A stretch of 57,355 nucleotides of DNA from Pelagibacteraceae bacterium AG-430-I06 (GCA_003209895.1 QCOH01000007.1:1-57355), one strand, 5' to 3'; positions 228 through 20,663 are shown, numbered from the stretch's first letter. The notes: generated by a model from the letters alone, not told the origin. Numbers and translations: made by a program.

Positions 228-1619
228 TTAATTGCCTGGTCTTGTCATTTTTTTCGGATTTACGATCCTATCAAATTCTTTTTCAGAAATAAGACCAGTT
301 TTTATAGCCTCTTCTTTTAATCCTGTGCCGTTCTTATGGGCTTGTTTAGCAATTTTAGCCGCATTATCATATCCAAGTTTTGGAGATAGAGCCGTCACCA
401 ACATCAAAGAGTTTTCTAAAAGAGATCCTATTCTTTTTTTATTTGCTTTAAGACCTTTAATACAAAAATTAGAAAATGCTTTAGAAGAGTCTGCCATTAT
501 ATTTATTGATTGTAATATGTTGTGTATTATTAATGGTTTAAAAACATTCAACTCAAAATGACCGTGAGAACCTGCCATTGTGATCCCGTTATGATTTCCA
601 ATTACCTTAACACAAACCATTGTCACCGCTTCACATTGTGTGGGATTTATTTTTCCAGGCATTATAGAAGAGCCCGGTTCATTTTCAGGTAATATTAATT
701 CTCCATAACCAGCCCTGGGTCCTGAACCAAGAAATCTAATATCATTTGCAATTTTCATCAGACAAACAGCTGTAGTATTCATAGTTCCTGAAAAGTTTAC
801 AATAGGATCGTGGGATGCCAAGGCTGCAAATTTATTTTTAGACGGTTTAAAAGGAAGCTTTGTAATTTTTCTAATTTCTTTTACAATTTTTTTATCAAAA
901 CCTTTTTTTGTATTCAAACCAGTACCGACAGCAGTTCCTCCTTGAGCTAAAAAGTATATTTCATTAAGGGCTTTTTCAATTCTTTCTATGCATTTTTTTA
1001 ATTGAGAGTGATAACCAGAAAATTCTTGACCTAAGGTTAGTGGGGTTGCATCTTGAAGATGTGTTCTTCCTAATTTAACTATATTACTAAATTTTTTTAC
1101 TTTCTTATAAAGTTCTTTTTCAAGTAATTTTAGTGATGGTAATAGTTTATCTCTAGTCTTCATCGCTATAGCTATATGCATAGCTGTTGGAAAAACATCA
1201 TTGGTAGACTGTGATTTATTTACATGATCATTTGGATGAACAGGTTTTTTAGTACCCATCTTACCACCCATCATCTGAATAGCTCTGTTAGCTATGACTT
1301 CATTGACGTTCATATTTGTTTGCGTGCCAGATCCTGTTTGCCAAACTTTAAGAGGAAAGTGGTTATTTAGCTTCCCCTTAATTACCTCGTCTGATGCCCT
1401 TACAATATATTTGCTTATCCTTTTTTCCAAATCTCTGTTTTTTGCGTTTACTATTGCCGCAGCTTTTTTAACAATAGCAATAGATTGTATTAGTATTGGT
1501 CTTACTAGAAAATCTCCTATATCAAAATATTTGTTCGATCTTTGTGTTGAAGCTCCCCAATACTTATCACCAGGAACTTTAATCTTACCTATAGAATCGA
1601 ATTCAGTTCTATATTTCAT
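228..1619 (-). CDS. fumC: Class II fumarate hydratase
   Basis: This enzyme interconverts fumarate and malate in the TCA cycle and needs no iron-sulfur cluster. The 463 residues match the usual class II length. The superfamily signature [15 protein letters not shown] is present near residue 315, and [12 protein letters not shown] and [15 protein letters not shown] match the other two active-site regions of the fumarase/aspartase fold. The start ATG at 1619 aligns with the family N-terminus (YRTEFDSIG, then WGASTQRS). The gene stands alone on the minus strand and is divergent from the MazG-like gene. Homotetramer and cytosolic location are expected from the family. Confidence 0.97.
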
Positions 1620-1686
1620 TATTGTATCAAAGATATATTAAGCATGTTTAATTGTAAATAATTTACAAAATGACTGTGGAGATTTT

Positions 1687-2058
1687 ATGACAAACTTTAG
1701 TGATGTTAAAAAATTTATGGAAACTTTTGGTCAAGAAGTTAAGAAAAAAGCTGAGTTTCCTTCAGACAAAATAACCAAACTTAGATACGATTTGATCAAA
1801 GAAGAATTGGATGAGTTCGAAGAAGCTTTGAAAGCAAAAGACCTAAAAGAAGTAGCCGATTCGCTCACAGATATTTTGTATGTAACTTATGGTGCTGGTC
1901 ATGCTTTTGGAATAGATCTAGACAAATGTTTTGACGAAGTACAAAGGTCAAATATGAGTAAGCTAGATGAAGATGGAAAGCCCATCTATAATGAAAATGG
2001 TAAAGTTATGAAGGGACCTAAATATTTTGAGCCTAATTTAAAAAAATTCATTGAATAA
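1687..2058 (+). CDS. MazG-like nucleoside triphosphate pyrophosphohydrolase
   Basis: A 123-residue all-alpha protein. Residues 32-60 carry the metal-binding pattern of the MazG/PRA-PH superfamily: LIKEELDEFEEAL, then a conserved Asp in ADSLTDILYVTYG. The C-terminal stretch DEDGKPIYNENGKVMKGPKY is typical of the subgroup annotated as PRA-PH-like or NTP pyrophosphohydrolase. The family cleaves NTPs or related nucleotides to NMP plus pyrophosphate and is often a housecleaning enzyme; the substrate here cannot be read from sequence. It is monocistronic between two minus-strand genes. Confidence 0.8.
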   Translation: MTNFSDVKKFMETFGQEVKKKAEFPSDKITKLRYDLIKEELDEFEEALKAKDLKEVADSLTDILYVTYGAGHAFGIDLDKCFDEVQRSNMSKLDEDGKPIYNENGKVMKGPKYFEPNLKKFIE

Positions 2059-2095
2059 ATTAACGTAATGTTATCACTAATAAAATTCTTAAAAA

Positions 2096-2785
2096 CTATA
2101 TTTTTTTATTATAAATTTTTTCATATAAATTGTCCTGAAAATGAAACGAAGGGTAAGTGAATTTCTTTACAAGTCTAAAATTATGTTTCCTTAAAAAAAA
2201 TTCAACTTTTTTGTGTGAGAAGTCTTGGTATTGATTAAAAAATAGTTTTTCGATTAAAATAAATCTTACCTTATTTTTGATAATATTTATCGACCCGTTT
2301 AATACATTTAATTCATATCCTTCTGCATCAATTTTTAACAAACAATCCTTCAAATCCTTATTTTTAAATACCGTATCAAGTTTATTTATTTTAACTTCAT
2401 ACTTATCTTCATAATTTTTAGATGCACCTAATAGAAGCTTTTTAAAAGATAAAAAAAATGTTTTTTTATATTTTTTAAAAGTAGATGAATATGACATTTT
2501 GTTTATATAAATATTTTTTCTAGTATCGTTATTCCCCAGACCAATATTAAAAAACTTTATCTTTTTATTATTTTTAAAATTTTTATGAAGAATATCGTAA
2601 ATATTTTTTTGTGGTTCAAAGCAATAAATTTTTTTAATTTTTTTTAACTTTAATAAAAAAGTCAAAAACTCACCTTTATGGGAACCAACATCAATAAAAT
2701 ATTGTATTTCAAATTTTTTTATAAAATTAGTTATTCTGGTATAATGTATCGGATTAAGTAGATTGAATATTAATTCAAATTTCAT
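2096..2785 (-). CDS. FkbM-family SAM-dependent methyltransferase
   Basis: A 229-residue Rossmann methyltransferase. The SAM-binding motif I is visible as FIDVGSHKGEFLTFLLK near residue 30, an acidic strand end follows in YCFEPQ, and the FkbM hallmark LKIDAEGYELNVLNG lies near residue 150. FkbM proteins usually methylate sugar hydroxyls in polysaccharides or natural products, which fits the sugar genes downstream of ssrA. The protein is unusually rich in Lys, Phe and Asn. Its ATG lies five bases from a 13-bp copy of the tmRNA 3' end (2791-2803), so the gene abuts a possible integration scar. Confidence 0.85.
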   Translation of the reverse strand: MKFELIFNLLNPIHYTRITNFIKKFEIQYFIDVGSHKGEFLTFLLKLKKIKKIYCFEPQKNIYDILHKNFKNNKKIKFFNIGLGNNDTRKNIYINKMSYSSTFKKYKKTFFLSFKKLLLGASKNYEDKYEVKINKLDTVFKNKDLKDCLLKIDAEGYELNVLNGSINIIKNKVRFILIEKLFFNQYQDFSHKKVEFFLRKHNFRLVKKFTYPSFHFQDNLYEKIYNKKI

Positions 2786-2790
2786 ATTTT

Positions 2791-2803
2791 AGGGGCGTTC
2801 TGT
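2791..2803 (+). repeat. 13-bp direct repeat of the ssrA 3' end (outer copy)
   Basis: The sequence aggggcgttctgt is identical to 3927-3939, where it forms the 3' end of the tmRNA coding piece. The two copies lie 1136 bp apart in the same orientation and bracket the MORN gene and a small membrane-protein gene. Similarity stops after 13 bp. A short duplicated 3' end of a stable RNA is what site-specific integration leaves behind, but no integrase is present, so the att-site reading is inference. Confidence 0.5.
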
Positions 2804-2850
2804 ATCCCGCACACGGTCAAAGAACTCCTTAAAGTATAACTTTTTTAAAC

Positions 2851-2871
2851 AGTTCGTAGTTAGTTCGTAGT
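2851..2871 (+). repeat. Short tandem repeat of 11 bp
   Basis: The unit agttcgtagtt at 2851-2861 is followed immediately by agttcgtagta at 2862-2872, a near-perfect tandem duplication. It lies in the 150-bp gap between the ssrA-end repeat and the MORN gene. The function is unknown; it may be part of the upstream region of the MORN gene or of a recombination scar. Confidence 0.4.
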
Positions 2872-2935
2872 AATTGAGCAGTATTTTGTTTCGATATTGC
2901 TTTTGTGGTTCATAGTTTTGGGCTAGAATGAACTT

Positions 2936-3382
2936 ATGAAAAAATTATCTCTATACGTTTTTCTGCTTTTGATGTGGTGCAACGTTGGTTTTGCTGCGTG
3001 CCTTTCTGGTAATTGCAAAAATGGACAAGGAACTTTCAAATGGGAAGGTAATGATTCTAGTACTGGAGACACATACGTTGGGGAATGGAAAAATTCTAAA
3101 AGACACGGAAAAGGAACTTACACATGGAATCAATTTCCAAAACAAGAATATGTTGGGGAATGGAAAAAAAATAAAATGCATGGACGAGGAATTTACACTT
3201 GGCACAAAAAAAGACAAATATTTATTGGAGAGTGGCGAGATGGTTTAATGGTGACCGGAGGAGGGACAGCGTTCGAACGAAGTGTTCAATTAAAACAACT
3301 GGTCAAAATGCATAAAGATGGAATTATTTCTAAAGCCGAATTCGACCAAGCATTGCTAAGACAAAAGAATAAAAAAAAATAA
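2936..3382 (+). CDS. Exported MORN-repeat protein with SHOCT-like tail
   Basis: A 148-residue protein. Residues 1-20 form a signal peptide (MKKLSLYVFLLLMWCNVGFA); a Cys at position 21 or 22 makes a lipoprotein conceivable, but the lipobox is poor. Three or four MORN-type units follow, each with the pattern YVGEWKNxKxHGKGTYTW. The last 35 residues (LVKMHKDGIISKAEFDQALL) resemble a SHOCT domain, a short helical module with the pattern hydrophobic-x2-G-I-I-S-x2-E-F. MORN repeats in bacterial envelope proteins mostly serve as binding surfaces; no enzymatic residues are seen. The gene is isolated between the two copies of the 13-bp repeat. Confidence 0.75.
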   Translation: MKKLSLYVFLLLMWCNVGFAACLSGNCKNGQGTFKWEGNDSSTGDTYVGEWKNSKRHGKGTYTWNQFPKQEYVGEWKKNKMHGRGIYTWHKKRQIFIGEWRDGLMVTGGGTAFERSVQLKQLVKMHKDGIISKAEFDQALLRQKNKKK

Positions 3383-3421
3383 AGCTTGATAAAAGAAAAA
3401 GTACTTTCAGATTTTTTTATG

Positions 3422-3844
3422 TTAATAAGCAGGTTGTCGTAAAGCAGGATCAGGAATTGGGTCCGGACCAAAAATCGAGCTCACAATTATGAAAGCCCAG
3501 ACAAACGCTGCAAAGATCATAGTTCCTAAATAAACTACATAAGGTATATTAGCTTCATATTTTTTAAAAGTTTTCACTGCGGGTAATGTTAATATCAAAC
3601 CTAAAACTGTTAATGAAAGAGTAAAAGAAAATAATGCGTTATACAAAATTGCAATTAAGTTTGGGTGAGTTACAGCAATTATTTTGTTTTTAACACTTTG
3701 ATTTGGTTGTAGTGTTAGAAAACCTCCGAATGCACCAATCATTTGCCAAAGTTTAAATGCTTCCGTATCTTCAAATTTTATATTTTTCTTTTTAACGTTT
3801 CCAAGCAATCCTAAAGTCATCGCTTTTAAAAACAAATTATACAT
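3422..3844 (-). CDS. Small inner-membrane protein of unknown function
   Basis: A 140-residue protein with two strong hydrophobic segments, at about 65-88 (LYNALFSFTLSLTVLGLILTL) and about 100-123 (YVVYLGTMIFAAFVWAFIIVS). The N-terminus is a soluble or amphipathic stretch with KKKNIKFEDTEAFKLWQMIG, and the end is proline-rich. I do not recognise a family. It lies between the MORN gene (convergent) and ssrA (same strand, upstream), inside the segment bracketed by the 13-bp repeats. Confidence 0.65.
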   Translation of the reverse strand: MYNLFLKAMTLGLLGNVKKKNIKFEDTEAFKLWQMIGAFGGFLTLQPNQSVKNKIIAVTHPNLIAILYNALFSFTLSLTVLGLILTLPAVKTFKKYEANIPYVVYLGTMIFAAFVWAFIIVSSIFGPDPIPDPALRQPAY

Positions 3845-3926
3845 TTCAAAAAACTAACGGAATATAAATAAAAATTCAATATAAATAAAATGGTTCACTG
3901 TAAATTTTTTAAAATATAAGTAAGAA

Positions 3927-3939
3927 AGGGGCGTTCTGT
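3927..3939 (+). repeat. 13-bp direct repeat at the ssrA 3' end (inner copy)
   Basis: The sequence aggggcgttctgt, read on the minus strand as acagaacgcccct, forms the 3' terminus of the tmRNA coding piece and pairs with upstream ggggc to close a hairpin. It is duplicated exactly at 2791-2803. This copy has a structural role in the RNA, so it is probably the ancestral one. Confidence 0.5.
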
Positions 3940-4187
3940 TGCCAGGTGCCCCAAACCCCGTTTACTTAATTAACAAGTTAATTAAGCAGCAAGTGCAAAT
4001 TTATTATTTGCATTTATAATTAGCCCGTTACGTCGGAACTATCTCGAACGAAAGAACAGCCTTTAGACACTCGTCGATTCTAATTCACCCCCGATAGAAA
4101 ATTATGGTGGAGGTGGTGGGTACTGCCCCCACGTCCGCAATGTTTATTACGAAATTCGTTTATCGTTATAGTTGGTAAACCAACATT
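3928..4187 (-). ncRNA. ssrA: tmRNA, circularly permuted two-piece form
   Basis: Read on the minus strand. The acceptor piece comes first: a T arm (GTGGG-GGCAGTA-CCCAC) and acceptor strand CACCTCC followed by ACCA, ending at 4105. After about 12 spacer bases the coding piece starts at 4092 with GGGGGTG, which pairs with CACCTCC (one G-U pair) to form the tRNA-like acceptor stem. The tag frame at 4011-3982 reads ANNKFALAA then TAA, ending in the LAA degron expected for ssrA. The 3' end carries CACCTGGCAACAGAA, characteristic of alphaproteobacterial coding pieces. The permuted order is the known alphaproteobacterial arrangement; the loop is processed out. The 5' limit of the acceptor piece is approximate. 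Confidence 0.93.
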
Positions 4188-4193
4188 ATTATT

Positions 4194-5804
4194 TTACATT
4201 ATTTTATACAAAAATAAATCAGTTTTACATTTAACACAGTCACGAACTAATATACCCGAATTTATTTGGTATTTTGATATAATGTATTTAGCACCCATTT
4301 TTTTTGCTTCTGAAAAATTTAATTTAACATCGTCTTTATCATTTACAAACGCATACACTCTGCTGCCCCAGTTGTCGTAATAATTCTTTAGTGTTTCGTT
4401 TATATTCAACTCTTTTTCTATAATTTTTCTGAATTTTATTTTATAACTATTTGGATATAATGTATGATAACCATCAATTACATTTATATCATTCATTACA
4501 GCTACCATCGGATCTAAGCTAACTGACAAAACTCTATTATCCTTTACTATTTTCTTAATTTCTAAATATTTTTCAGAAGTATAGTAACCTTTGAAAGTAT
4601 AAACATTTTGGTAAGCAGATTTGTCATCGTTTAGAATAAATTTTTTAATAAATGGAACTGCAGAGGAATTTATTTGAAAAGAAATTAAAGACAATATTGA
4701 AAAAAATATAATTATATTTCTAAATTTACTTAAATTTAACAAGTAAAGAGCAATAAGAGAAAATAAGAATGGAACATAAATAAATATCCAGCTGAATCTA
4801 TATGCTTTTAATAAAACTAAATTATTTTTTAAACTTTCAAAAATTTGCAGGTCAAAAATAAAAACTAAAAAATACAGAATAAATATTAAAAATGTAAAAT
4901 TTTTAATAACTTTTTCTTTTGATATGATAGAAAAAAAAATAAGTGGTATTAATAAAATATTATATGGCAGATTTGCAAAGACTGTCCAATTTAGACCTGT
5001 TGGAAATCTAAATATATTTTTAAATATATTTAAAAAATTTTCAAAAATACCGGGACTTTCTTTAAAAAAATAATCTCTATGAAATACAATATCTCCAAAT
5101 ATTAAAAAAACTAAGTTAATACTTGTAATGATAGCAGGAATAAAAAAAATTACTAAAACTTTACAAATATGTATAAAGTTTTTTTTTACCACATTTAAAT
5201 TTATTATACTTAAAGTAATTAATAATAAAACGGGAGATAAAATCGAGCCCACTAAATCTGTATTTGCACCAAAAAAAATCAATATGAAATAATGTTTGAA
5301 GCGTAAACTTTTTTTGTACATGCATAAGTAAACAAGATAAGGGAATATAGCCACACCAAAACCCTCTAAAGCATTAGAATTTAAAGAGGCAAAAATACAA
5401 GCAGATAATGCACAGAAAAAAATATTGCTGGAAATTTTTTTAGCTAAAATGAAAAAAGAGACATAACTAGTTATTCTTATTAAAAAATGTAATAACCAAA
5501 AACTTAACTCAGTATTTAGTACTGCATAAAAAAGTGAATAAGGTTTATAAAGTTCCTTAAAATAATTTCCTTCAATTACACCTCCAAGAAATTTATTAAA
5601 AGCATTTGGGTCGCCCCCAAGATATTCTCCGATAACTTTATTGTATACAACGCCAGCATCTAATTTGTCGTGATAAAACAAAGTAATATCTCCAAAAATT
5701 AATAGTGGAAACAAGTAATTTAAAATTAGAATTGATATAAAAATTATATGATATGTTTTATTAGAAGCAGAGAAAGGACTATTTGCTTTGTATTTAAGGT
5801 TCAT
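4194..5804 (-). CDS. Polytopic membrane protein, GT-C/YfhO-like
   Basis: A 536-residue protein with about ten to twelve hydrophobic segments between residues 15 and 385, followed by a soluble C-terminal domain of about 140 residues. The first extramembrane loop contains FYHDKLDAGVVYNKVIGEYL, with the acidic residues expected in the first loop of GT-C glycosyltransferases. The C-terminal part (SLDPMVAVMNDINVIDGYHT) recalls DUF6044/YfhO-like proteins of surface-polysaccharide clusters. A role in transferring lipid-linked sugars is inference. It ends immediately before the tmRNA acceptor piece on the same strand and is divergent from the CDP-glucose dehydratase gene. Codon use is extremely AT-rich. 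Confidence 0.65.
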   Translation of the reverse strand: MNLKYKANSPFSASNKTYHIIFISILILNYLFPLLIFGDITLFYHDKLDAGVVYNKVIGEYLGGDPNAFNKFLGGVIEGNYFKELYKPYSLFYAVLNTELSFWLLHFLIRITSYVSFFILAKKISSNIFFCALSACIFASLNSNALEGFGVAIFPYLVYLCMYKKSLRFKHYFILIFFGANTDLVGSILSPVLLLITLSIINLNVVKKNFIHICKVLVIFFIPAIITSINLVFLIFGDIVFHRDYFFKESPGIFENFLNIFKNIFRFPTGLNWTVFANLPYNILLIPLIFFSIISKEKVIKNFTFLIFILYFLVFIFDLQIFESLKNNLVLLKAYRFSWIFIYVPFLFSLIALYLLNLSKFRNIIIFFSILSLISFQINSSAVPFIKKFILNDDKSAYQNVYTFKGYYTSEKYLEIKKIVKDNRVLSVSLDPMVAVMNDINVIDGYHTLYPNSYKIKFRKIIEKELNINETLKNYYDNWGSRVYAFVNDKDDVKLNFSEAKKMGAKYIISKYQINSGILVRDCVKCKTDLFLYKIM

Positions 5805-5877
5805 TTTTAAGTAATTTTAATTTATAAACTATTAATTATAATACAATAAAAGTAGCTTGATATCTAACATCTGATTT

Positions 5878-6936
5878 ATGGAACTAACAAAATTTTGGAA
5901 AGGTAAAAAAGTTTTTGTAACTGGACATACAGGTTTTAAAGGTAGTTGGTTATGTATATTTTTAAGTTATTTAGGTGCTAATGTTACTGGATATTCATTA
6001 AAACCAAAATTTAAAAAAAATCTATATGATCTAGCGAATGTTAAAAAGATACTTAAAAAATCAATTATTGCAGATGTAAGAGATTATAATAAATTATTTA
6101 AAGAAATTAAAAATTCTAAAGCATCTATTTTATTTCATTTAGCAGCCCAGCCTCTTGTTAGACAATCTTATAATGACCCCAAAGAAACTTTTGACACAAA
6201 TTTTACGGGGTCACTAAATATTTTAGAATGTATTAAAAATATAAAAAATATTAAAACTTCAGTTATTATTACTACTGATAAAGTTTACGATATTAAAAAA
6301 AATAAAATATTTAAAGAAACAGACCAACTCGGTGGTTATGACCCCTATAGCTCATCAAAAGTGTGTGTTGAGTTTATGTTCGAGTCCTATGTAAAATCAT
6401 TTTTTAAAAATAACGCCAATCAAATATTAGCCACCGTAAGAGCCGGAAATGTTATTGGTGGTGGAGATTATTCTCCAGATCGACTAATACCTGATATTTA
6501 CAGGGGATTATCAAAAAAAAAACTTTATTTACGTAACCCATTAGCCGTCAGACCTTGGCAACATGTTTTGGAACCGGTGAGCGGATACTTAATTTTGGCA
6601 GAGAAGATTCATACACCAAAAATAAAAAAACTTAAACAGAACTGGAATTTTGGCCCAAATATCTCAAGCTGTAAGTCGGTTAAATATATTTTTAATTACT
6701 TTAGAAAAGAATTAAAAATAAATTTAATTACAAAAAAAATTGAAAAAAATATAAAAAAACCAGAAACAAGTATTTTAAGATTGAGCAACTTCAAGGCAAG
6801 AAAATTTATTAAATGGAAGCCAAAATGGTCCTTAAACAAATCTCTAGACAAAATCTTAGAATGGAATAAAAAGATTAAATATAAAAAACCACTTGATGTA
6901 TGCAAAGAACAAATTGTAGAATTTTTAAGATCTTAA
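5878..6936 (+). CDS. rfbG: CDP-glucose 4,6-dehydratase
   Basis: A 352-residue extended SDR enzyme that converts CDP-D-glucose to CDP-4-keto-6-deoxy-D-glucose using bound NAD. The N-terminal FWKGKKVFVTGHTGFKGSWL is the typical RfbG nucleotide-binding start (TGxxGxxG with KGSWL), LAAQPLVRQSY follows, and the catalytic Tyr-Lys pair is in DPYSSSKVCVE. TVRAGNVIGGGDYSPDRLIPD and RPWQHVLEP are also family-specific. It is the first gene of a three-gene plus-strand operon with the DegT-type dehydratase and the ThDP enzyme. No glucose-1-phosphate cytidylyltransferase (rfbF) is in the window, so the CDP-glucose supply must be encoded elsewhere. Confidence 0.93.
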   Translation: MELTKFWKGKKVFVTGHTGFKGSWLCIFLSYLGANVTGYSLKPKFKKNLYDLANVKKILKKSIIADVRDYNKLFKEIKNSKASILFHLAAQPLVRQSYNDPKETFDTNFTGSLNILECIKNIKNIKTSVIITTDKVYDIKKNKIFKETDQLGGYDPYSSSKVCVEFMFESYVKSFFKNNANQILATVRAGNVIGGGDYSPDRLIPDIYRGLSKKKLYLRNPLAVRPWQHVLEPVSGYLILAEKIHTPKIKKLKQNWNFGPNISSCKSVKYIFNYFRKELKINLITKKIEKNIKKPETSILRLSNFKARKFIKWKPKWSLNKSLDKILEWNKKIKYKKPLDVCKEQIVEFLRS

Positions 6937-6957
6937 ATAAATTAAAAAGAGAGAAAA

Positions 6958-8157
6958 ATGATTAATAAAATTTCTTACGGGAAAAATGTTTATGACAATA
7001 GAGAAATAAAAGCTGTTATAAAAACATTAAAAAAATCAACTCAGATGGGAAAATCAGTAAATTTATTTGAAAATAAAATTGCAAAATTATTTTCAAAAAA
7101 ATATGGACTAATGGTAAATTCAGGATCTTCTGCATTAACATTAGCTTTCAAAGTTTTAAATTTTCCAAATAATAGTGAAATTATTACACCCAGTCTTAAC
7201 TTTGGAACTGCTGTTTCATCAATAATGTTGGCTAATTTAAAATCAGTTTTTGTTGATTGTGAAGTTGAAACGCTTCAAATAGATGTAAACAAAATTGAAA
7301 AAAAAATAACAAAAAAGACTAAAGCATTACTCATTCCAAATTTAATAGGAAATATCCCTGATTGGAAGAAAATTAGGCAACTAGCCACTAAATATAAATT
7401 AGTTGTAATAGAAGATTCTGCAGATACTCTAGGTGCAAAGTTTAGCAACAAACCTACTGGAAAATATAGCGATATATCAATTACAAGTTTTTATGGATCA
7501 CATGTTATTAGTTGCGCAGGCAATGGAGGAATCCTGACAACTAATAATAAAAATTTTTATGAAAAAGCCAAAGTATTAAGAAGCTGGGGCAGAATGTCTT
7601 CACTAATTAAAGACTCAGAAAATATAAAAAAAAGGCTAAGTATAAAACTTAAAGGTTTTGATTATGACAGAAAATTTGTATTTTCCGAGGCTGGTTATAA
7701 TTTCGAACCATCAGAAATAGGCGCTTCTTTTGGTTTAGAGCAGCTTAAAAAATTTGTTCATTTTAGTAAAGTTAGAAACAGAAATTTTGAACTTCATCTA
7801 AATTTTTTTAAAAATTTAAAAAAATACTTTATCACCCCTAAAGTAAGTAAAAATATTAAGACAAACTTTTTAGCATATCCAATAATTTTAAAAAATGGCT
7901 TAAAATTTTCTCGAAAAGAATTTCAAATACACTTAGAAAAAAATAAAATACAAACAAGACCGATATTTTCTGGAAATATTTTACGTCACCCAGCGTTTAG
8001 CAAATTAGTTTCAAGCACAAATAGATTAAATAACTTTAAAAATTCTGATTTTATAATGAAATATGGTCTATTAATCGGGTGCCACCAAGGACTATCGATT
8101 AAAGATATCTCATATATTCATAAAACTATTTTAAATTTTAAAAAAATTACAAAATGA
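6958..8157 (+). CDS. PLP-dependent sugar 3-dehydratase (RfbH/ColD-like, DegT fold)
   Basis: A 399-residue DegT/DnrJ/EryC1-fold protein. In aminotransferases of this fold a Lys binds PLP; here the aligned motif TSFYGSHVISCAGNGG has His at about residue 182, the hallmark of the 3-dehydratases RfbH/AscC (E1) and ColD. PLP contacts GSSALTLAF and EDSADTLGAKF are present. The [2Fe-2S] cysteines that E1 enzymes carry shortly after RxWGR are absent: this protein reads LRSWGRMSSLIKDSE. That favours a ColD-like, iron-sulfur-free mechanism (loss of the C3 hydroxyl by way of a glutamate-derived amine). It follows rfbG by 21 bases and its TGA overlaps the next ATG, so the three genes are translationally linked. 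Confidence 0.82.
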   Translation: MINKISYGKNVYDNREIKAVIKTLKKSTQMGKSVNLFENKIAKLFSKKYGLMVNSGSSALTLAFKVLNFPNNSEIITPSLNFGTAVSSIMLANLKSVFVDCEVETLQIDVNKIEKKITKKTKALLIPNLIGNIPDWKKIRQLATKYKLVVIEDSADTLGAKFSNKPTGKYSDISITSFYGSHVISCAGNGGILTTNNKNFYEKAKVLRSWGRMSSLIKDSENIKKRLSIKLKGFDYDRKFVFSEAGYNFEPSEIGASFGLEQLKKFVHFSKVRNRNFELHLNFFKNLKKYFITPKVSKNIKTNFLAYPIILKNGLKFSRKEFQIHLEKNKIQTRPIFSGNILRHPAFSKLVSSTNRLNNFKNSDFIMKYGLLIGCHQGLSIKDISYIHKTILNFKKITK

Positions 8158-9953
8158 ACTTATCAGATTATATATTAAAATTTTTAATTTCTAAAAAAAT
8201 TGATAATGTATTCCTTATAACAGGCGGGGCCATATCTTTCTTGGTAGACTCGTTTTCTAGAACAAAAAAAATTAAGTACACATGTGTAGCTCACGAACAA
8301 GCAGCCGCAATGATGGCTGATGCTTATTCTAGAATGGGGCCAAATTTATCATGCACAATGGTTACATCAGGACCAGGTGCCACAAATTTAATTACGGGTA
8401 TAGCATGTTCTTGGTTTGACTCCATACCAGCAATCCATATAACGGGACAAGTAAATAGTTATGAAAAGCAAGGTGCTCAAAAAGGAACAAAAAAAACAAG
8501 ACAGGTAGGTTTTCAAGAAACTGATATCGTTTCAATTACAAAACCAATAACAAAATTTTCTTACCAATTAAAAAACCCAAACGAAATAAAATATATTCTT
8601 GAAAAAGCATCATTTTTAGCTCAAGAAGGAAGACCAGGACCAGTGGTCATAGATATCCCAATGGACTTTCAAAAAGCTGATATAAACCCAAAAAAATTAA
8701 AATCTTTTAAATTTAAAAAACCAAAAATTCATAAAAATCTAAATAAAAATTTAATAAAACTAAATAAGTTAATAAAAAAATCAGAAAGGCCAGTAATCTT
8801 ATTGGGTGGGGGAATTAAAATATCAAAAAGCGAGAATAAATTAGAAAATTTTTTAAAAAAATTTAACTTACCAATTGTAACCACATGGAGCGGTGTAGAT
8901 TTAGTTGATCACAATAAATCAAATTATATTGGAAATGTCGGAGTTTATGGTAGTAGGGCGGCTAATTTCGCAGTTCAAAACTCTGATTTACTTTTATGTC
9001 TAGGCAGTCGTTTGGATACAAGAATCACTGGCGGAGTACCCAAAACATTTGCTCGAAACGCTAAAGTAATATCTGTAGATATTGATAAAAACGAACTATC
9101 AAAACAAAGGGGTTTAAAATTATTTTTGAAAATTAATTCAAATTTATCTGATTTTTTTATCAATTATAATGCGAAGCATAAAAAATTAAAATTTTCAAAC
9201 TTAGATTGGTTAAAAAAATGTGTTTACTGGAAGAGCAAATATCCAATTATAAAAAAAGATTATTTTAAACAAAAAAAATATACAAATGTTTACGCCTTTT
9301 TCTATCACTTATCAAAACTATTGAAAAAAAACTCTACTATAATAGCTGATGATGGAGGACATTTGACCTGGGCATTACAGGCTTTAAAAGTAAAAAAGGG
9401 TCAAAAATTTTTTTCTGCATTTGGTAATTCCCCAATGGGATATGCATTTCCAGCTTCTATTGGAGCCTCTTTAGCTCAAAAAAAATCAAAAGTTATTTGT
9501 ATAGATGGAGATGGAAGTATTCAGATAAACATTCAGGAAATGCAAACTCTTAAATCTAACAATCTACCTGTTAAAATTATAGTTATTAATAATAATGGTT
9601 ATGGAATAATTAAACAGTTCCAAGCACTCTATTTAAACAAAAGATATGAAGCTTCAATTCCAAAAAAAGGGGTAACAAACCCAGATTTTAAAAAGATTAC
9701 CAGAGCATATGGAATAAATTATAATGTAATAAATAAAAACTCCGATATAGCAAAGGTACTTAAAAAAACACTAAATACAAACAAGCCAGAATTTATAGAA
9801 GTAATGATTAAACCGGATCAAAAAATTATACCAAAACTACAGTTTGGTAATCCTATTGAAGATTTATCACCTCTTTTATCCAGGAAAGAGTTCGCAGAGA
9901 ACATGCTGGTAAAAACAGTTAATCGTAGTAAAAAAATTTTCGAAGCTAACTAA
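8154..9953 (+). CDS. ThDP-dependent acetolactate-synthase-like enzyme of the sugar cluster
   Basis: A 599-residue three-domain ThDP enzyme. The cofactor-activating Glu is in CVAHEQAAAMMADAYSR (E48), the middle domain holds LLGGGI and LGSRLDTRITGG, and the ThDP-Mg motif GDGSIQ...INNNGYG lies at about 449-480. It resembles acetolactate synthase large subunits, but a true ilvB with regulatory subunit is present at 18334. Its overlap with the sugar dehydratase gene argues that it works on a nucleotide sugar. The best-known parallel is YerE of yersiniose synthesis, a ThDP enzyme that adds a two-carbon unit from pyruvate to CDP-3,6-dideoxy-4-ketohexose. That reaction is inference; other decarboxylating or ligating roles are possible. 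Confidence 0.75.
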   Translation: MNLSDYILKFLISKKIDNVFLITGGAISFLVDSFSRTKKIKYTCVAHEQAAAMMADAYSRMGPNLSCTMVTSGPGATNLITGIACSWFDSIPAIHITGQVNSYEKQGAQKGTKKTRQVGFQETDIVSITKPITKFSYQLKNPNEIKYILEKASFLAQEGRPGPVVIDIPMDFQKADINPKKLKSFKFKKPKIHKNLNKNLIKLNKLIKKSERPVILLGGGIKISKSENKLENFLKKFNLPIVTTWSGVDLVDHNKSNYIGNVGVYGSRAANFAVQNSDLLLCLGSRLDTRITGGVPKTFARNAKVISVDIDKNELSKQRGLKLFLKINSNLSDFFINYNAKHKKLKFSNLDWLKKCVYWKSKYPIIKKDYFKQKKYTNVYAFFYHLSKLLKKNSTIIADDGGHLTWALQALKVKKGQKFFSAFGNSPMGYAFPASIGASLAQKKSKVICIDGDGSIQINIQEMQTLKSNNLPVKIIVINNNGYGIIKQFQALYLNKRYEASIPKKGVTNPDFKKITRAYGINYNVINKNSDIAKVLKKTLNTNKPEFIEVMIKPDQKIIPKLQFGNPIEDLSPLLSRKEFAENMLVKTVNRSKKIFEAN

Positions 9954-10993
9954 TTTTTAAAATATTTTATCGTTTCAGCAAAACCTTCTTTGCATGTTAT
10001 CTTAGGAGTCCACCCTAAAAGTTTTAATTTTTTTATAGAGGGCTTTTTATAAAAAAAGTTATTTCTCTTCTTAGAATTTTTCATAATTTTAATTTTTAAC
10101 TTTTTTATTTTAGAATATTTAAGAATAGTTTTTGCAAGATCCTTAACAGAAAGCATTTGGGATGGATTGGACACATTATAAATTTCATTTTTCTTACCTT
10201 TAAGAATTACAGTTAGTATTCCAGTAATAGCATCAGAAATATAACAAAAAGATCTTTTAGTTTTCCCGTCACCTTTAATTATTAAGTTTTTGTTCCTCAA
10301 AATGTTATGAACTAAGTCCGAATGTATTCTTCCGTCATTTAGTTTCATTTCAGGTCCATAAGTGTGAAATAATCTTACTGAATTAGTAAAAATATTATAT
10401 TTATTCGACCAGCTAATGAGCGCATTTTCTGCAAATTTTTTTGAAATTCCGTAATTAGAAGATAATTTTGACGGATTAAGATCGCCCAAACTATTTTCAT
10501 CAAATATATGTTTTTTACTAAACCTCATATCGCCATAAACTTCTCCACTACTTAACAATAAAAATTTATTTATTTTTTGTTTAATTGAAAAATTTAAAAG
10601 ATTTATAGTCCCAATAGCATTGGTTAATAAAACTTCTGTAGGTTTTTTGGAATATTCGACAGGTGATGTTATACTTGCCGCATGAAGTAAAATATCTGGT
10701 TTAATTTTTAAATTTATCTTCTTATTTAAATCAACCTTAAATACTTTAATTATCTTATTTTTTTCTAATTTTTTTAAATAATTGTTTCTTTTATTTCTTC
10801 TAATTCCATAAAAATAAATTCTATATTTTTTTTTCTTCATTACTTTGTACAAATAGTAAATGAATGAGGAAGAAACAAAACCGTTACAGCCAGTCACTAA
10901 AATCTTTTTATTTCTAAGTTTATGAAAAGGTAGCTTAGAGTTTAAAACATTTTTTATAATTTTATCTTCTACAGTTTGTTTTAATACTTTCAT
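9950..10993 (-). CDS. NAD(P)-dependent sugar epimerase/dehydratase/reductase (extended SDR)
   Basis: A 347-residue extended SDR. The nucleotide-binding motif reads ILVTGCNGFVSSSFI, so the third glycine of TGxxGxxG is serine. HAASITSPVEYSKKP, LLSSGEVYGD and the catalytic pair in NYGISKKFAENAL are intact, and SVRLFHTYGPEM and RSFCYISDAI match UDP-glucuronate decarboxylase-like and dTDP-glucose dehydratase-like members. The N-terminal extension of about 30 residues is also seen in sugar-cluster members. It converges on the ThDP gene with a 4-bp overlap of the 3' ends. A reductase or epimerase acting on the product of the CDP-sugar operon is plausible but unproven. Confidence 0.8.
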   Translation of the reverse strand: MKVLKQTVEDKIIKNVLNSKLPFHKLRNKKILVTGCNGFVSSSFIYYLYKVMKKKKYRIYFYGIRRNKRNNYLKKLEKNKIIKVFKVDLNKKINLKIKPDILLHAASITSPVEYSKKPTEVLLTNAIGTINLLNFSIKQKINKFLLLSSGEVYGDMRFSKKHIFDENSLGDLNPSKLSSNYGISKKFAENALISWSNKYNIFTNSVRLFHTYGPEMKLNDGRIHSDLVHNILRNKNLIIKGDGKTKRSFCYISDAITGILTVILKGKKNEIYNVSNPSQMLSVKDLAKTILKYSKIKKLKIKIMKNSKKRNNFFYKKPSIKKLKLLGWTPKITCKEGFAETIKYFKN

Positions 10994-11003
10994 AAAAAAT
11001 TAA

Positions 11004-11945
11004 TTATTTTTCAAAATTAATTCTTTCCTCTTCTATAACTATTGGAGCCTTCCTAAATTTAATGTTTATTGACCCGATGTACTCGGCAAGTATTCCAAGA
11101 AAAATAAAAATGAAAGAGAAGAAAACAGAGATTAAAATTATGATCGGAGCCACTCCTGTTGTAAAATTATCCCAGAAAATTATTTTGTACATGGTATAAA
11201 AAATTCCAATTGAGAAAGAAATTATTGAAAATATAAAGGCAAAAATTGAAATAATTCTCAATGGTGTTTTGGTGTAAGATGTGAATGCAGTACTTGCTAG
11301 ATCTAAAAGAGTATAAAGATCATTTTTTGTTTTACCAGATTTTCTTACTTCGTGTGTATAATGAACTTTTTTTACTTTCAATGAAATGTCTGCAACTATC
11401 CCTCTTAAATAGGGTTCCGGTGTATTAAACTGCTTAAAAATTTCAATAACTTTTCTATCATAAAGACCAAAGCCCATAAAACCCTCATACAAATCTATAT
11501 CAGAAAACTTATTAACTAATTTGTAGAAAACTTTTCTTATAAAAAACGAAAGTTTGCTGCCCTCACTCCCTTTTTTTATTCCAATGACTGTTTTGTAACC
11601 CTCTTCCCAGAAACGAAGAAAATCTTCAATTAAATTTGGTGGATCCTGTAAGTCAGCTACTATTAATATCGCAGCCTCGCCTTTTGATTGCTGAAGGGCC
11701 CAATAAGGAGATGCCCACTGCCCAAAATTACGTGTATTAAAAATTAATTTAACATTTTTGTCTTTTTTGGCAATTTCTCTTAAAAATTCTCTGGTTTTAT
11801 CATTAGATTTATTGTCAATAAATATATGCTCGTAAGAATAGTGTTCTTTTTTTGAAAACAGGGTTTTTACTGCTGTATAAATTTTATCAACATTTGCCTC
11901 CTCATTTAAACATGGAGTCACTATACTTATTAATTTTTTATCCAT
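11004..11945 (-). CDS. Family 2 glycosyltransferase, GtrB/ArnC-like
   Basis: A 313-residue protein with an N-terminal GT-A domain (ISIVTPCLNEEANVDKIY, then FIDNKSNDKTREF) and the catalytic-metal region VADLQDPPNLIEDF. Two C-terminal membrane helices lie at about 228-250 and 262-290. This layout is that of polyprenyl-phosphate sugar transferases such as GtrB, ArnC and DPM1-like enzymes, which charge undecaprenyl phosphate with a sugar for transfer across the membrane. It lies ten bases from the SDR gene and is probably co-transcribed upstream of it. The sugar is unknown. Confidence 0.88.
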   Translation of the reverse strand: MDKKLISIVTPCLNEEANVDKIYTAVKTLFSKKEHYSYEHIFIDNKSNDKTREFLREIAKKDKNVKLIFNTRNFGQWASPYWALQQSKGEAAILIVADLQDPPNLIEDFLRFWEEGYKTVIGIKKGSEGSKLSFFIRKVFYKLVNKFSDIDLYEGFMGFGLYDRKVIEIFKQFNTPEPYLRGIVADISLKVKKVHYTHEVRKSGKTKNDLYTLLDLASTAFTSYTKTPLRIISIFAFIFSIISFSIGIFYTMYKIIFWDNFTTGVAPIIILISVFFSFIFIFLGILAEYIGSINIKFRKAPIVIEEERINFEK

Positions 11946-11999
11946 AAATTTATTGTATAATATATTTTGATATAATTAATATCATTATAATCTTTATAC

Positions 12000-12947
12000 A
12001 TGAAATTAACTAAAGAACAAAAACAAGAAATTGCAGATCAACAGTCTCAAAAAAATGTAACTAAAAGAGTGACTTCTCCCGAACTTGAGAAAATACTCTA
12101 CGATGCACTTCCTGTTCTTGACCATGGTTTTGTTAGAGTAGTTGATTATATGGGTGATGATACCTCGATAGTTCAATCCGCCAGGGTATCATATGGTAAG
12201 GGAACCAAAAAAGTTTCAACGGATAGTGGATTAATAAAATATTTGATGAGGCATAGACACAGCACTCCTTTTGAGATGTGCGAAATAAAATATCATGTAA
12301 AACTTCCAATATTTGTTGCAAGACAATGGATTAGACACAGAACTGCAAATGTTAACGAGTACTCTGCAAGATACTCTATTTTAGATAAAGAATTTTATAT
12401 TCCAGACAAACAGCACCTTGCAGCTCAATCAGAGAGTAATCGTCAGGGAAGAGGAAATTTAATTAATGGTAAACAAGCAGATGAGATTTTAAACATGCTT
12501 AAGGAAGATGCTCAAAAAAATTATGACGACTATGAAAAAATGTTAAACCAAAAATATGATGGAACAATTATCGATGAAAAAAAACAAGGTTTAGCCAGAG
12601 AGCTTGCACGAATGAATCTTACACTAAATGCTTATACACAATGGTACTGGAAAACTGACTTATTAAACCTACTTAATTTTCTCTCATTAAGAGCCGACAG
12701 TCATGCGCAATACGAAATTAGAGCTTACGCAGACGTAATGGCAGATTCTTTAAAGAGATGGGTTCCGATTACTTATGATGCTTTTATGGATTATAGGGTT
12801 GGCGCTATGGAGCTTTCTTCCAAAGGAAAAGTAATAGTTAAAAAAATGATGAAGGGAGAAAATTGTAAATACGAAGACTCTGGATTATCTAAAAGAGAGT
12901 GGAATGAATTGATGGGTTCTTTAGGGTTTACTGAACGTCTTGTATAA
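12000..12947 (+). CDS. thyX: FAD-dependent thymidylate synthase
   Basis: ThyX makes dTMP from dUMP with methylene-tetrahydrofolate and NADPH using FAD, in place of ThyA. The 315 residues include the ThyX motif [15 protein letters not shown] at about 112-126, preceded by the second RH-rich element [19 protein letters not shown]. The C-terminal half has [11 protein letters not shown], which belongs to the nucleotide-binding helix. The start ATG is at 12000. The gene converges on mrp with a 20-bp overlap of the coding ends. Confidence 0.96.
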
Positions 12948-13752
12948 TTTTATCCGCTATACTAGAAAATATCTTGGATATCTCATGATCAGATTTTTTA
13001 TAAGTAAGAGGCAATCCTAAATCTGCAGATTCTCTAAGATCAGTATTTAATGGAATTTTTCCTAAAAATTTTTTATTAAAATCTTTGGCAACTTTTTCAA
13101 CACCACCTTCCCCAAAGATATTATATTTTTTTCCATCATCGCCTTTAAAAAAACTCATATTATCTACAAGACCAAAAATTTTAATTTTAGTCTTGTCAAA
13201 CATTTGAATACCTCTTTGAACATCCATTAACGCTAATTCTTGTGGTGTTGAAACAATTATGGCACCATCAATTTTAACATCTTGAGCAAATGTAAGCTGG
13301 GTGTCTCCTGTACCCGGCGGCATATCAATTATTAAAAAATCTAAATCTTTCCATGCAACTTTTTCGGTGAGCGTTTTTATTGCACTAATCACCATTGGAC
13401 CTCTCCAGATCATAGGTGTTTTTTCATCGACCAAAAACCCAAGGGACATAAATTGTGCACCATATTTTTCTATAGGAAATAAAAATTTTCCATCAGTTTT
13501 AGGTTTTTCATTAAGCCCAATCATTTTTGGTAAAGAGGGGCCGTAAATGTCAGCATCTAATAAACCAACTCTCCTACCTTTATTTTGAAGAGCAAAAGTT
13601 AAATTCATAGCAAAAGTAGATTTACCAACACCACCTTTGGCACTAGATACCATTAATGTAAATTTTGTCCCTTTTATCGGGTTTTTCTTAAAATTTTTCG
13701 GTTTGGTTTTTTCTTTTAAACTTTGGCTTATTTTGGCTTCATTATCTGACAT
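12928..13752 (-). CDS. mrp: Mrp/ApbC-type P-loop iron-sulfur carrier ATPase
   Basis: A 274-residue MinD-fold ATPase with a deviant Walker [18 protein letters not shown], near residue 33. [15 protein letters not shown] and [15 protein letters not shown] are Mrp-specific. Family members transfer Fe-S clusters to apoproteins. Two departures from the textbook protein are visible: there is no N-terminal DUF59/MIP18 domain, only about 30 basic residues, and the usual CxxC after NMS is replaced by [20 protein letters not shown]. From memory, some other alphaproteobacterial Mrp proteins also lack this CxxC. Its 3' end overlaps thyX. Confidence 0.88.
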
Positions 13753-13806
13753 TATATCGCTTTATCATAACTTGTTTTTATTTAAAAAGTCACTATATAA
13801 AGTGTG

Positions 13807-14925
13807 ATGTCATCAAAAGAAGATATTTTGATCTTAAAAAATGAGTCTCCTTGGGGTTCTAATCCCGGAGGAGGTGGAGATGGAAACGGTAACGGATCTG
13901 GGCAAAGACGACAACCACCAAACATTGATGACTTAATAAGAAAGGCCCAAGGTTCAGTTGGAAAAATTTTTCCCGGAGGCAAAGGTAGCAGCAAACCAAT
14001 TTACATAGGTATTTTAGTTTTATTAATATTATGGGGTTTAAGCGGTCTATACAGAGTTTTGCCGGATGAACAAGGGGTAGTTTTAAGATTTGGAAAATTT
14101 ATTAAGACAACACAACCCGGACTAAATTATCACATTCCTTTCCCAGTCGAAAGTGTTCTAACACCAAAAGTTACAAAAGTTAATCGTATCGATGTTGGAT
14201 TTAGATCCGAAAGCGATAGCGGAAGATCTTCTGGGGTTGGAGACGTTTCCGAAGAAAGTTTGATGCTAACAGGTGATGAAAATATCGTTGACATCGATTA
14301 TTCAGTTTTTTGGGTAATAAAAGATGCAGGAAAGTTTCTCTTCAATATTCAAAGTCCACTTGAAACTGTAAAAGCTGCATCCGAAACAGCGATGAGAGAA
14401 GTGATAGCAAAAAGTAAAATTCAATCAATTTTAACAGAAGGAAGATCTAAAATTGAAAATGAAGTTCAAGATATTACTCAGGAAATTTTAGATGAATATG
14501 GCTCCGGTATTCAAGTGACACAAGTTCAAACTCAAAAAGCTGATCCCCCTAACCAGGTTATTGATGCATTTAGAGATGTACAAGCAGCAAGAGCAGATAG
14601 AGAAAGATCAAAAAACGAAGCAGAAGCATATGCGAACGATGTAATTCCTAGAGCGCGTGGTGAAGCAGAAAAGATTCTTCAGCAAGCAGAAGCATATAAA
14701 AAAGAGGTAGTAGCTAAAGCCGAAGGTGAAGCCAGCAGATTCTTAGCAATTTATAATGAGTACAAAGACGCTAAACAGGTTACACAAGAAAGAATGTATT
14801 TAGAAACAATGGAAAAAGTTTTAGCAGATATTGACAAAGTAATAATTGATAAAAATTCTGGATCAGGCGTAGTGCCATACCTTCCGCTTCCAGAAATTAA
14901 AAAGAAAACTCAGGCAGGAAACTAA
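13807..14925 (+). CDS. hflK: HflK, SPFH/band-7 membrane protein
   Basis: HflK and HflC form a membrane complex that surrounds and modulates the FtsH protease. This protein of about 372 residues has a Gly/Asn/Pro-rich cytoplasmic N-terminus (GSNPGGGGDGNGNGSG), one membrane helix (IYIGILVLLILWGLSGLYRV) and a band-7 domain starting VLPDEQGVVLRFGKF. A long coiled coil rich in Ala, Glu and Arg follows (ARADRERSKNEAEAYAND). A GTG directly precedes the ATG at 13807; I chose the ATG. The stop TAA overlaps the hflC ATG by one base, showing translational coupling. Confidence 0.95.
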   Translation: MSSKEDILILKNESPWGSNPGGGGDGNGNGSGQRRQPPNIDDLIRKAQGSVGKIFPGGKGSSKPIYIGILVLLILWGLSGLYRVLPDEQGVVLRFGKFIKTTQPGLNYHIPFPVESVLTPKVTKVNRIDVGFRSESDSGRSSGVGDVSEESLMLTGDENIVDIDYSVFWVIKDAGKFLFNIQSPLETVKAASETAMREVIAKSKIQSILTEGRSKIENEVQDITQEILDEYGSGIQVTQVQTQKADPPNQVIDAFRDVQAARADRERSKNEAEAYANDVIPRARGEAEKILQQAEAYKKEVVAKAEGEASRFLAIYNEYKDAKQVTQERMYLETMEKVLADIDKVIIDKNSGSGVVPYLPLPEIKKKTQAGN

Positions 14926-15791
14926 TGAAAAAATTTTTTATTCCACTTTTCATAATCATTGGTGCTATCGTATATAATACATTATTTGTAGTTCAAGAAA
15001 TTAACCAAGCAATTGTTCTACAGTTTGGTGATCCAAAAAAGATCATCACTAAACCAGGTTTAAATTTTAAAATACCCTTTATACAAAACGTAGTATTTCT
15101 AGATAGAAGAGTTTTAAATTTAGATAACCCACCAGAAGAAGTTATTGCTGCAGATCAAAAAAGGTTAATAGTTGACGCATTTGCTAGATTCAAAATTGTT
15201 GATCCGCTAAAGTTTTATATATCAGTTGGAAATGAAAGAGTAGCAAGATCAAGATTGGCTACGATCATAAACTCAAGAATAAGAAGTGTTTTAGGTACAC
15301 AAGAGTTAGCAACTTTACTTTCAACAGATAGAGCAGTTCACATGGGTACAATTCAGAACGACGTTAATACAGAAGCTCAAAATTTCGGGATTACAATAGT
15401 TGATGTAAGAATTAAGAGAGCTGATTTACCACCAGCTAATAGTGAAGCAATTTATGCAAGAATGCAAACAGAGAGACAGAGGGAAGCAAAAGAATTTAGA
15501 GCACAAGGAGCAGAGATGGCTGCAAAAATTACCTCAACAGCAGATAAAGAAGTTACAGTCATATTGGCTAACGCAAATAAAGAATCCGAAATTATGAGAG
15601 GTGAGGGAGACGGTAAACGAAATAAAATTTTTGCATCTGCTTTTGGAAAAGACCCAGAATTTTTTGGTTTTTATAGAGCCATGCAATCTTACGAAAAAGC
15701 TTTAATTGGTGGTGATACATCAATGATTTTATCTCCTGACAGCGATTTCTTTAAATTTTTCGGAAAAACTGGGGCTTCAAAAAAACAATAA
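14925..15791 (+). CDS. hflC: HflC, SPFH/band-7 membrane protein
   Basis: Partner of HflK. The 288 residues begin with a membrane anchor (FFIPLFIIIGAIVYNTLFVV), then a band-7 domain (EINQAIVLQFGDPKKIITKP, FLDRRVLNLDNPPEEV). A charged coiled coil with the HflC hallmark IYARMQTERQREAKEFRAQG follows at about 180-200. The end contains YEKALIGGDTSMILSPDSDFF, typical of HflC. It is coupled to hflK and is followed 10 bases later by the DUF2065 gene. Confidence 0.96.
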   Translation: MKKFFIPLFIIIGAIVYNTLFVVQEINQAIVLQFGDPKKIITKPGLNFKIPFIQNVVFLDRRVLNLDNPPEEVIAADQKRLIVDAFARFKIVDPLKFYISVGNERVARSRLATIINSRIRSVLGTQELATLLSTDRAVHMGTIQNDVNTEAQNFGITIVDVRIKRADLPPANSEAIYARMQTERQREAKEFRAQGAEMAAKITSTADKEVTVILANANKESEIMRGEGDGKRNKIFASAFGKDPEFFGFYRAMQSYEKALIGGDTSMILSPDSDFFKFFGKTGASKKQ

Positions 15792-20097: not shown

Positions 20098-20647
20098 ATG
20101 AAAGCTCCTAAATCAGCGTATAGTGCCGCTACAAAAACAGGCAAAGTAGAAAAACATATAATGGTCATTTGGGTTGATAATGAAGCCGGTGTATTAGCCA
20201 GAGTAGTAGGTTTATTTTCTGGCAGAGGTTATAATATTGAGTCACTGGCAGTTGCAGAAATTGATAAAAAACAAAAACTTTCAAGAATTACACTTGTAAC
20301 GTCGGGCTCACCCGAAGTGATATCCCAAATAAAAAAACAGCTTGAAAAACTTGTACCAGTTCACAAAGTAGCTGATTTTATGAGAAATGATCCGAAAATC
20401 ATATTTAGAGATATGGCTTTACTTAAAGTAATATCTAATGAAAAAAAAAAGAAGCAAAGCTAAGAGATTATGTAAAAAATTTGACTCAGTTATTCTTGAC
20501 AAAAGCAATAAATCAATAGTTATTCAAGTTACGGCTTTAAGAAGAGACATTGATAAACTAGTGAGTGATTTAAAACCACTAGGTCTAGCCAGCGTCTCTA
20601 GAACAGGTGCGGTTGCAATGACAAGGGGAGCAGAAATTTTTAAATAA
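20098..20647 (+). pseudogene. ilvN: Acetolactate synthase regulatory subunit, frameshifted at A10
   Basis: The frame from 20098 encodes an ACT domain (IMVIWVDNEAGVLARVVGLF, GYNIESLAV) and continues to LLKVISNEKK, then runs through ten A residues (20441-20450) into a TAA at 20461. The rest of the family sequence continues in the +1 frame: KRSKAKRLCKKFDSVILD through SRTGAVAMTRGAEIFK, ending at 20647. With nine As the two halves join into one protein of about 182 residues that aligns to the family without a gap. So this is one gene with a one-base insertion in a homopolymer. Possible explanations are a sequencing error, a recent mutation, or transcriptional slippage on A10 restoring some full-length subunit. 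The flanking operon looks intact. Confidence 0.88.
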
Positions 20648-20663
20648 TACAGGAGAATAAAAA

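Follow-up and report, generated by a model that had tools for sequence, protein, structure and literature searches.

A yersiniose-like branched-sugar cassette predicted in a SAR11 genome, with a sugar 3-dehydratase lacking the [2Fe-2S] cysteines

YerE-like sugar branching has been characterised from only a few cultured bacteria. The yersiniose A pathway of Yersinia pseudotuberculosis comprises RfbF, RfbG, E1/RfbH, YerE, and YerF. Of the decarboxylase subclasses, only the YerE-like enzymes have been described to use isolated ketones, and the chemistry of both YerE and ErwE has been reviewed (PMC12247030). A His in place of the PLP Lys is the hallmark of sugar 3-dehydratases, among which E1/RfbH (CDP-4-keto-6-deoxyglucose 3-dehydrase) requires four cysteines for its [2Fe-2S] cluster, whereas ColD (GDP-4-keto-6-deoxymannose 3-dehydratase) has none and uses hydrolysis and glutamate (PMC8987622). 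Gram-positives are known to have paired GT-A and GT-C enzymes working with undecaprenyl phosphate (PMC8035078).

The stretch analysed here (57,355 nucleotides; the window) is contig C7 of the SAR11 genome of Pelagibacteraceae bacterium AG-430-I06, which comprises 924,715 bases in 27 contigs and is 78% complete. A sequence-only reading had described consecutive genes for a CDP-glucose 4,6-dehydratase, a DegT dehydratase with His for Lys, and an acetolactate-synthase-like ThDP enzyme, and all three are present where it placed them. The relevant features are as follows.

228-1619, minus strand: fumC, left border of a hypervariable site; same border in genus relatives
1687-2058, plus strand: 123-aa gene, flanking the hypervariable site on the left together with fumC, as in genus relatives
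2936-3382: MORN-repeat-like small protein gene inside the variable interval
4194-5804, minus strand: DUF6044 membrane protein, possible GT-C transferase (PF19510, 148 bits), upstream of rfbG
5878-6936, plus strand: rfbG, CDP-glucose 4,6-dehydratase (TIGR02622, 414.7 bits against a cut-off of 278.45)
6958-8157, plus strand: predicted DegT-fold, PMP-dependent sugar 3-dehydratase with His182 for Lys and without the [2Fe-2S] cysteines (RfbH/ColD homology, motif, tree, AF2 model)
8154-9953, plus strand: predicted YerE-like ThDP carboligase (bit scores against PpYerE, JanthE, and AHAS; trees)
9950-10993, minus strand: extended SDR, candidate branch-ketone reductase with a putative YerF-like role (Epimerase family match)
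11004-11945, minus strand: predicted GtrB/ArnC/CsbB-type polyprenyl-phosphate glycosyltransferase (Glycos_transf_2, PgfS and ArnC models)
12000-12947, plus strand: thyX, flanking the hypervariable site on the right, as in genus relatives

Each of the three identities holds up. The rfbG product exceeds its family cut-off, the DegT protein carries an SFYGSH motif with His at the position of the PLP lysine, and the ThDP protein has three TPP_enzyme domains, in which the catalytic Glu48 and the ThDP-binding GDG (452-454) and NN (479-480) are all present. The genes had also been described as translationally coupled. This is strictly true only of the DegT/ThDP junction, a 4-base overlap (ATGA at 8154-8157), because rfbG and the DegT gene are 21 bases apart. 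The SDR and GtrB-like neighbours are likewise present, on the opposite strand at 9950-11945, and both recur beside the ThDP gene in relatives. The rfbG-DegT-ThDP arrangement is not due to chance, since it recurs in other SAR11 genomes.

The SAR11 locus shares with the Yersinia pathway a CDP-glucose 4,6-dehydratase, a His-type 3-dehydratase, and a YerE-like carboligase in an operon, with an SDR beside it. Unlike Yersinia, it has an Fe-S-free 3-dehydratase, rfbF at another locus, a GtrB-type transfer gene, and a SAR11 host, and no E3-type reductase domain was found in the genome. The proposed yersiniose-like logic is supported by the genes and their phylogeny, with the exception that the DegT protein is not an E1 of the Yersinia type, because the cluster cysteines are missing. 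The cassette probably makes a C-4 branched, yersiniose-like CDP-deoxysugar for the cell surface.

From the gene identities, motifs, phylogeny, gene order, and co-occurrence observed, we infer the reactions and their donor, and likewise the sequence of the final steps and the acceptor, as follows. RfbF, encoded on contig C4, would supply CDP-glucose, which RfbG would convert to CDP-4-keto-6-deoxyglucose. The DegT-type enzyme would use PMP to remove the hydroxyl at C-3, probably as ColD does, by hydrolysis followed by restoration of PMP with glutamate; on that assumption neither an Fe-S cluster nor an E3 reductase would be needed. The ThDP enzyme would decarboxylate a 2-oxoacid, most likely pyruvate, and add the acyl carbanion to the C-4 ketone, so that the product would be a tertiary alcohol bearing an acetyl branch. 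The SDR may reduce the branch ketone to yield the yersiniose-like sugar, the GtrB-type enzyme may load this sugar onto undecaprenyl phosphate, and the DUF6044 protein could pass the lipid-linked sugar to a periplasmic acceptor or surface polymer.

A search of the genome for rfbF located it outside the window, on contig C4 (9543-10253; TIGR02623, 286.7 bits, just short of the 300-bit cut-off, while the next-best family reaches 111). The C4 cluster around it (L040, 5110-16860) is surface-polysaccharide-like, holds three further DegT-family genes and several SDRs in addition to the rfbF of this genome, and ends near a pntA-like gene. In other SAR11 genomes the genes come together: rfbF-rfbG-DegT-ThDP-SDR-GtrB are collinear in G356 (L088) and L130, and the order rfbF-rfbG-DegT-ThDP is found in L102, L104, and L106. 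Whole-genome searches of the 16 SAR11 genomes with a close ThDP gene (56-72% identity, a set that includes genomes with the ThDP gene apart from rfbG and the dehydratase) detected rfbG over its cut-off in 13 and a 3-dehydratase gene in 13, namely 12 of the Fe-S-free DegT type and 1 of the E1 type. Similarly, rfbG is present in all 6 SAR11-order genomes whose ThDP protein is at least 60% identical, against 124 of 397 (31%) overall (Fisher p = 0.0009, without correction for relatedness). Related ThDP genes from beyond SAR11 (Clostridium, archaea, and Campylobacterota) are accompanied by rfbF, rfbG, and an Fe-S RfbH. In several SAR11 genomes the ThDP gene is separate from the rfb genes, with an SDR or near thyX, and so the enzyme need not always act with the rfb operon.

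Sister cassettes bear on the nature of the branch. Among the 12 SAR11 loci whose DegT genes are nearest to that of the window (at least 68% identity), the carboligase slot holds a YerE-like gene in 4, a split transketolase in 5, and neither in 3, one of which is on a 3.8-kb contig; no locus has both. The split transketolases are encoded as N and C halves in two genes (Pfam Transketolase_N and Transket_pyr) and lie beside DegT and SDR/GtrB genes in L083 (9833-11465), L084 (7364-9047), L089 (12104-13763), L091, L082, and L218. A 2025 review lists 13 split transketolases, every one from Streptomycetes, as presumed keto-sugar branching enzymes (PMC12247030). Because two unrelated types of ThDP enzyme share the slot, a C-C bond-forming step at this position is independently supported. 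Two genomes, G270 (AG-426-F15) and AG-917-A18, combine a transketolase at the DegT locus with a YerE-like gene and an SDR located elsewhere. In one of the 4 loci with a YerE-like gene (L085 of G224, 10588-14927), this gene is accompanied by genes for two aldolases, one of the HpcH/HpaI and one of the DmpG type, and for an acetaldehyde dehydrogenase. This set suggests ErwE-like use of 4-hydroxy-2-oxo acids (PMC12247030), a longer hydroxylated donor as in erwiniose. Because sister cassettes fill the slot with a split transketolase or with a YerE-like enzyme and adjoining 2-oxoacid aldolases, the branch appears to be modular.

The L085 gene set also raises the question of which donor the window enzyme uses. 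A longer or hydroxylated 2-oxoacid, used by an otherwise identical cassette, would give a longer branch, as in erwiniose or caryophyllose. The donor does vary among YerE-like enzymes, and ErwE does not use pyruvate (PMC12247030). However, the L085 enzyme belongs to another subclade, with 37% identity to that of the window, and no gene for donor synthesis, such as an aldolase, lies in the window cassette, so that a central 2-oxoacid is the simpler donor. We therefore regard the longer branch as unlikely, though the best placed of the alternatives, and favour pyruvate.

The most distinctive component is the DegT protein. Its best curated model is RfbH, at 279 bits and below the cut-off of 423. 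The four [2Fe-2S] cysteines are absent, the window protein having EDSADTLG and WGRMSSLIKDSENI where E1/RfbH has EDCCDALG and WGRDCYCAPGCDNTC, and they are also missing in every other examined member of its clade. In a 46-row tree this Fe-S-free clade (support 99/98; 24 rows from SAR11, two other Pseudomonadota genomes, and two Patescibacteria) is set apart from both the E1 clade (96/95) and ColD. An AF2 model (pLDDT 86) has E1 as its closest structure (TM 0.88), with ColD next, and its sole long low-confidence stretch is 210-246, where E1 carries the cluster cysteines. Thus, the window protein resembles E1/RfbH in operon place, closest structure, and predicted substrate, but differs from it in the loss of all four cluster cysteines and in its separate clade. 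It resembles ColD in having His for Lys and no Fe-S cysteines, making a reductase-free route with PMP and glutamate plausible; unlike ColD, it is paired with a CDP-glucose dehydratase rather than with a GDP-mannose pathway, and again falls in a clade of its own. FAD_binding_6, a part of E3-type reductases, was not found in the window genome or in seven other SAR11 genomes, all of them incomplete assemblies; as the Lake Baikal genome with the Fe-S enzyme is one of these, the absence speaks for neither mechanism. An ordinary aminotransferase was considered for the DegT protein and is ruled out by the His for Lys. In a Ryanbacteria genome (L118, 5839 onward), an RfbH-like protein reads WGREYWF in the cluster region; this member of the E1 clade has apparently lost the Fe-S site independently.

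It could be argued that the DegT protein is not a 3-dehydratase here and that the substrate of the ThDP enzyme is CDP-4-keto-6-deoxyglucose as such or some other keto sugar. In keeping with this, the clade lacks the Fe-S site, no characterised member was found in the literature, and the protein scores under the RfbH cut-off; moreover, only 27 of the 55 genomes having the DegT clade contain rfbG, wider members also occurring in genomes without it. Among the 12 genomes with the closest DegT genes, though, 9 have rfbG, and the His for Lys hallmark (PMC8987622) and the structural matches to E1 and ColD both point to 3-dehydration. Furthermore, an Fe-S enzyme of the E1 type takes the same place directly before the ThDP gene in G197 (Lake Baikal; L111, 2383-5501) and G196 (L232, 1492-4544). 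This exchange of E1-type and Fe-S-free enzymes at one position argues for the same reaction, and we judge that the protein is improbable as anything other than a 3-dehydratase.

The ThDP protein is closer to YerE-like enzymes than to acetohydroxyacid-forming ones. When solved structures were ranked by sequence, the first was 5ahk (352 bits), which is deposited as acetolactate synthase II large subunit and which we take to be PpYerE of Pseudomonas protegens. At the acceptor site, the AHAS Trp (W464 of AHAS II), present in 7 of the 8 AHAS rows of the alignment, is replaced by Phe in the window protein and PpYerE and by Thr in JanthE. This Trp favours 2-ketobutyrate in AHAS. The second structure was 8rph (317 bits), that of JanthE (PMC12188165), and AHAS structures scored at most 271. 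An earlier 67-row tree gave the same grouping, but long branches left its deep fork uncertain, and the tree was therefore rebuilt without them. In the resulting 43-row maximum-likelihood tree, a 100/100 branch separates seven AHAS sequences, including the window IlvB (18334-20097) and E. coli IlvI and IlvB, from the window protein, PpYerE, JanthE, and 33 relatives; the phylogeny that the sequence-only reading had proposed as a check thus places the protein with the YerE-like enzymes and not with AHAS. Like PpYerE and JanthE, the window protein has the active-site Trp replaced, and it aligns with them over nearly the full length. Unlike them, it belongs to a separate SAR11 subclade, and it differs from JanthE in its canonical GDG (CDG in JanthE) and in keeping an AHAS-type Arg that JanthE is without. 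No assayed enzyme of this clade was found in the literature.

A role for the protein in amino-acid synthesis, as a duplicated acetolactate synthase, is very improbable: the protein's general AHAS similarity (TIGR00118, 438.9 bits) falls below the cut-off of 538, the tree and the Trp to Phe change contradict it, ilvB, ilvC, and a small-subunit gene form a normal set at 18334-21683, no regulatory subunit adjoins the ThDP gene, and its relatives are found among sugar genes.

ThDP proteins of Patescibacteria (L114, 9995-11809, Roizmanbacteria; L117, Gottesmanbacteria) are 54-56% identical to the window protein and sister to the SAR11 clade, a kinship that likely reflects transfer between phyla. 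Plasmid and phage searches with the ThDP protein returned AHAS genes or unannotated matches at 35% identity or less. Other SAR11 YerE-like genes (L042, L043, L044, L045) adjoin RfaE/HldE-like genes rather than rfb genes, possibly indicating a different sugar acceptor. A conserved SAR11 cluster (L046, L047, L048, L050) combines a 37% ThDP relative with a B12-radical-SAM-like protein, a DegT protein, dehydrogenase E1-like subunits, and a heptose-kinase-like GHMP kinase.

The Fe-S-free dehydratase clade and the exchangeable slot mark the cassette as a variant and not another copy of the YerE pathway. It is quite possible, though we would stop short of calling it probable, that SAR11 has a modular branched-sugar system, in which an unrecognised third lineage of 3-dehydratases without Fe-S is joined to an exchangeable slot (YerE-like, split transketolase, or YerE-like with 2-oxoacid aldolases), such that related strains display different branched sugars. 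If so, the dehydratase without iron could reflect adaptation to sea water that is poor in this metal; an iron-saving replacement of this kind is a guess only. In SAR11, whose cells are among the most abundant in the ocean, an exchangeable cassette points to rare tertiary-alcohol surface sugars that could matter for phage binding and grazing. For CDP sugars, the Fe-S-free lineage offers an alternative to the E1/E3 radical route that can be put to the test. Split transketolases in the SAR11 slot extend a group reported only from Streptomycetes (PMC12247030) and are candidate ketone-accepting biocatalysts.

The genes predicted to act last also recur with the carboligase. An SDR lies between the carboligase and GtrB in several cassettes, and in G012 (L041) a relative 47% identical to the window SDR overlaps the ThDP gene by 1 base. 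The GtrB protein has a GT2 domain and C-terminal hydrophobic segments and matches the PgfS (176.6 bits) and ArnC (112 bits) models over nearly its full length, both under their equivalog cut-offs. GtrB genes are near ThDP or DegT genes in many relatives, and GtrB-type genes occur with ThDP genes in Patescibacteria, Bacteroidales, and one Campylobacterota genome as well (L178, plus a probable GtrA). The AF2 model of the DUF6044 protein is weak (pLDDT 60), so its top Foldseek matches, the GT-C enzymes AftA and STT3 with weak E-values, give only a hint of a GT-C transferase. A scan of viral contigs for DUF6044 gave no match. The cassette resembles the CsbB-GtcA-YfhO and YkoT-YkoS transmembrane glycosylation systems in having a GtrB-type GT-A enzyme and a multi-span protein with weak GT-C matches. 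Unlike those systems, it has CDP-deoxysugar genes attached, and no GtrA flippase was identified in it.

The interval from fumC to thyX (window 228-12947) is a hypervariable gene-exchange site in the genus. In the genus relatives compared, fumC and the 123-aa gene on the left (scored where a stretch reaches the fumC side) and thyX on the right enclose differing gene sets, many of them for surface carbohydrates. The site is distinct from the Pelagibacterales O-chain cluster, which sits beside rRNA genes and whose description does not mention the cassette genes in its main text (PMC11898729). In G003, DUF6044, GtrB, and rfbG occur together at the same site without the ThDP gene, and ThDP orthologues of other SAR11 genomes adjoin or lie near thyX (L103, L105, L112, L119).
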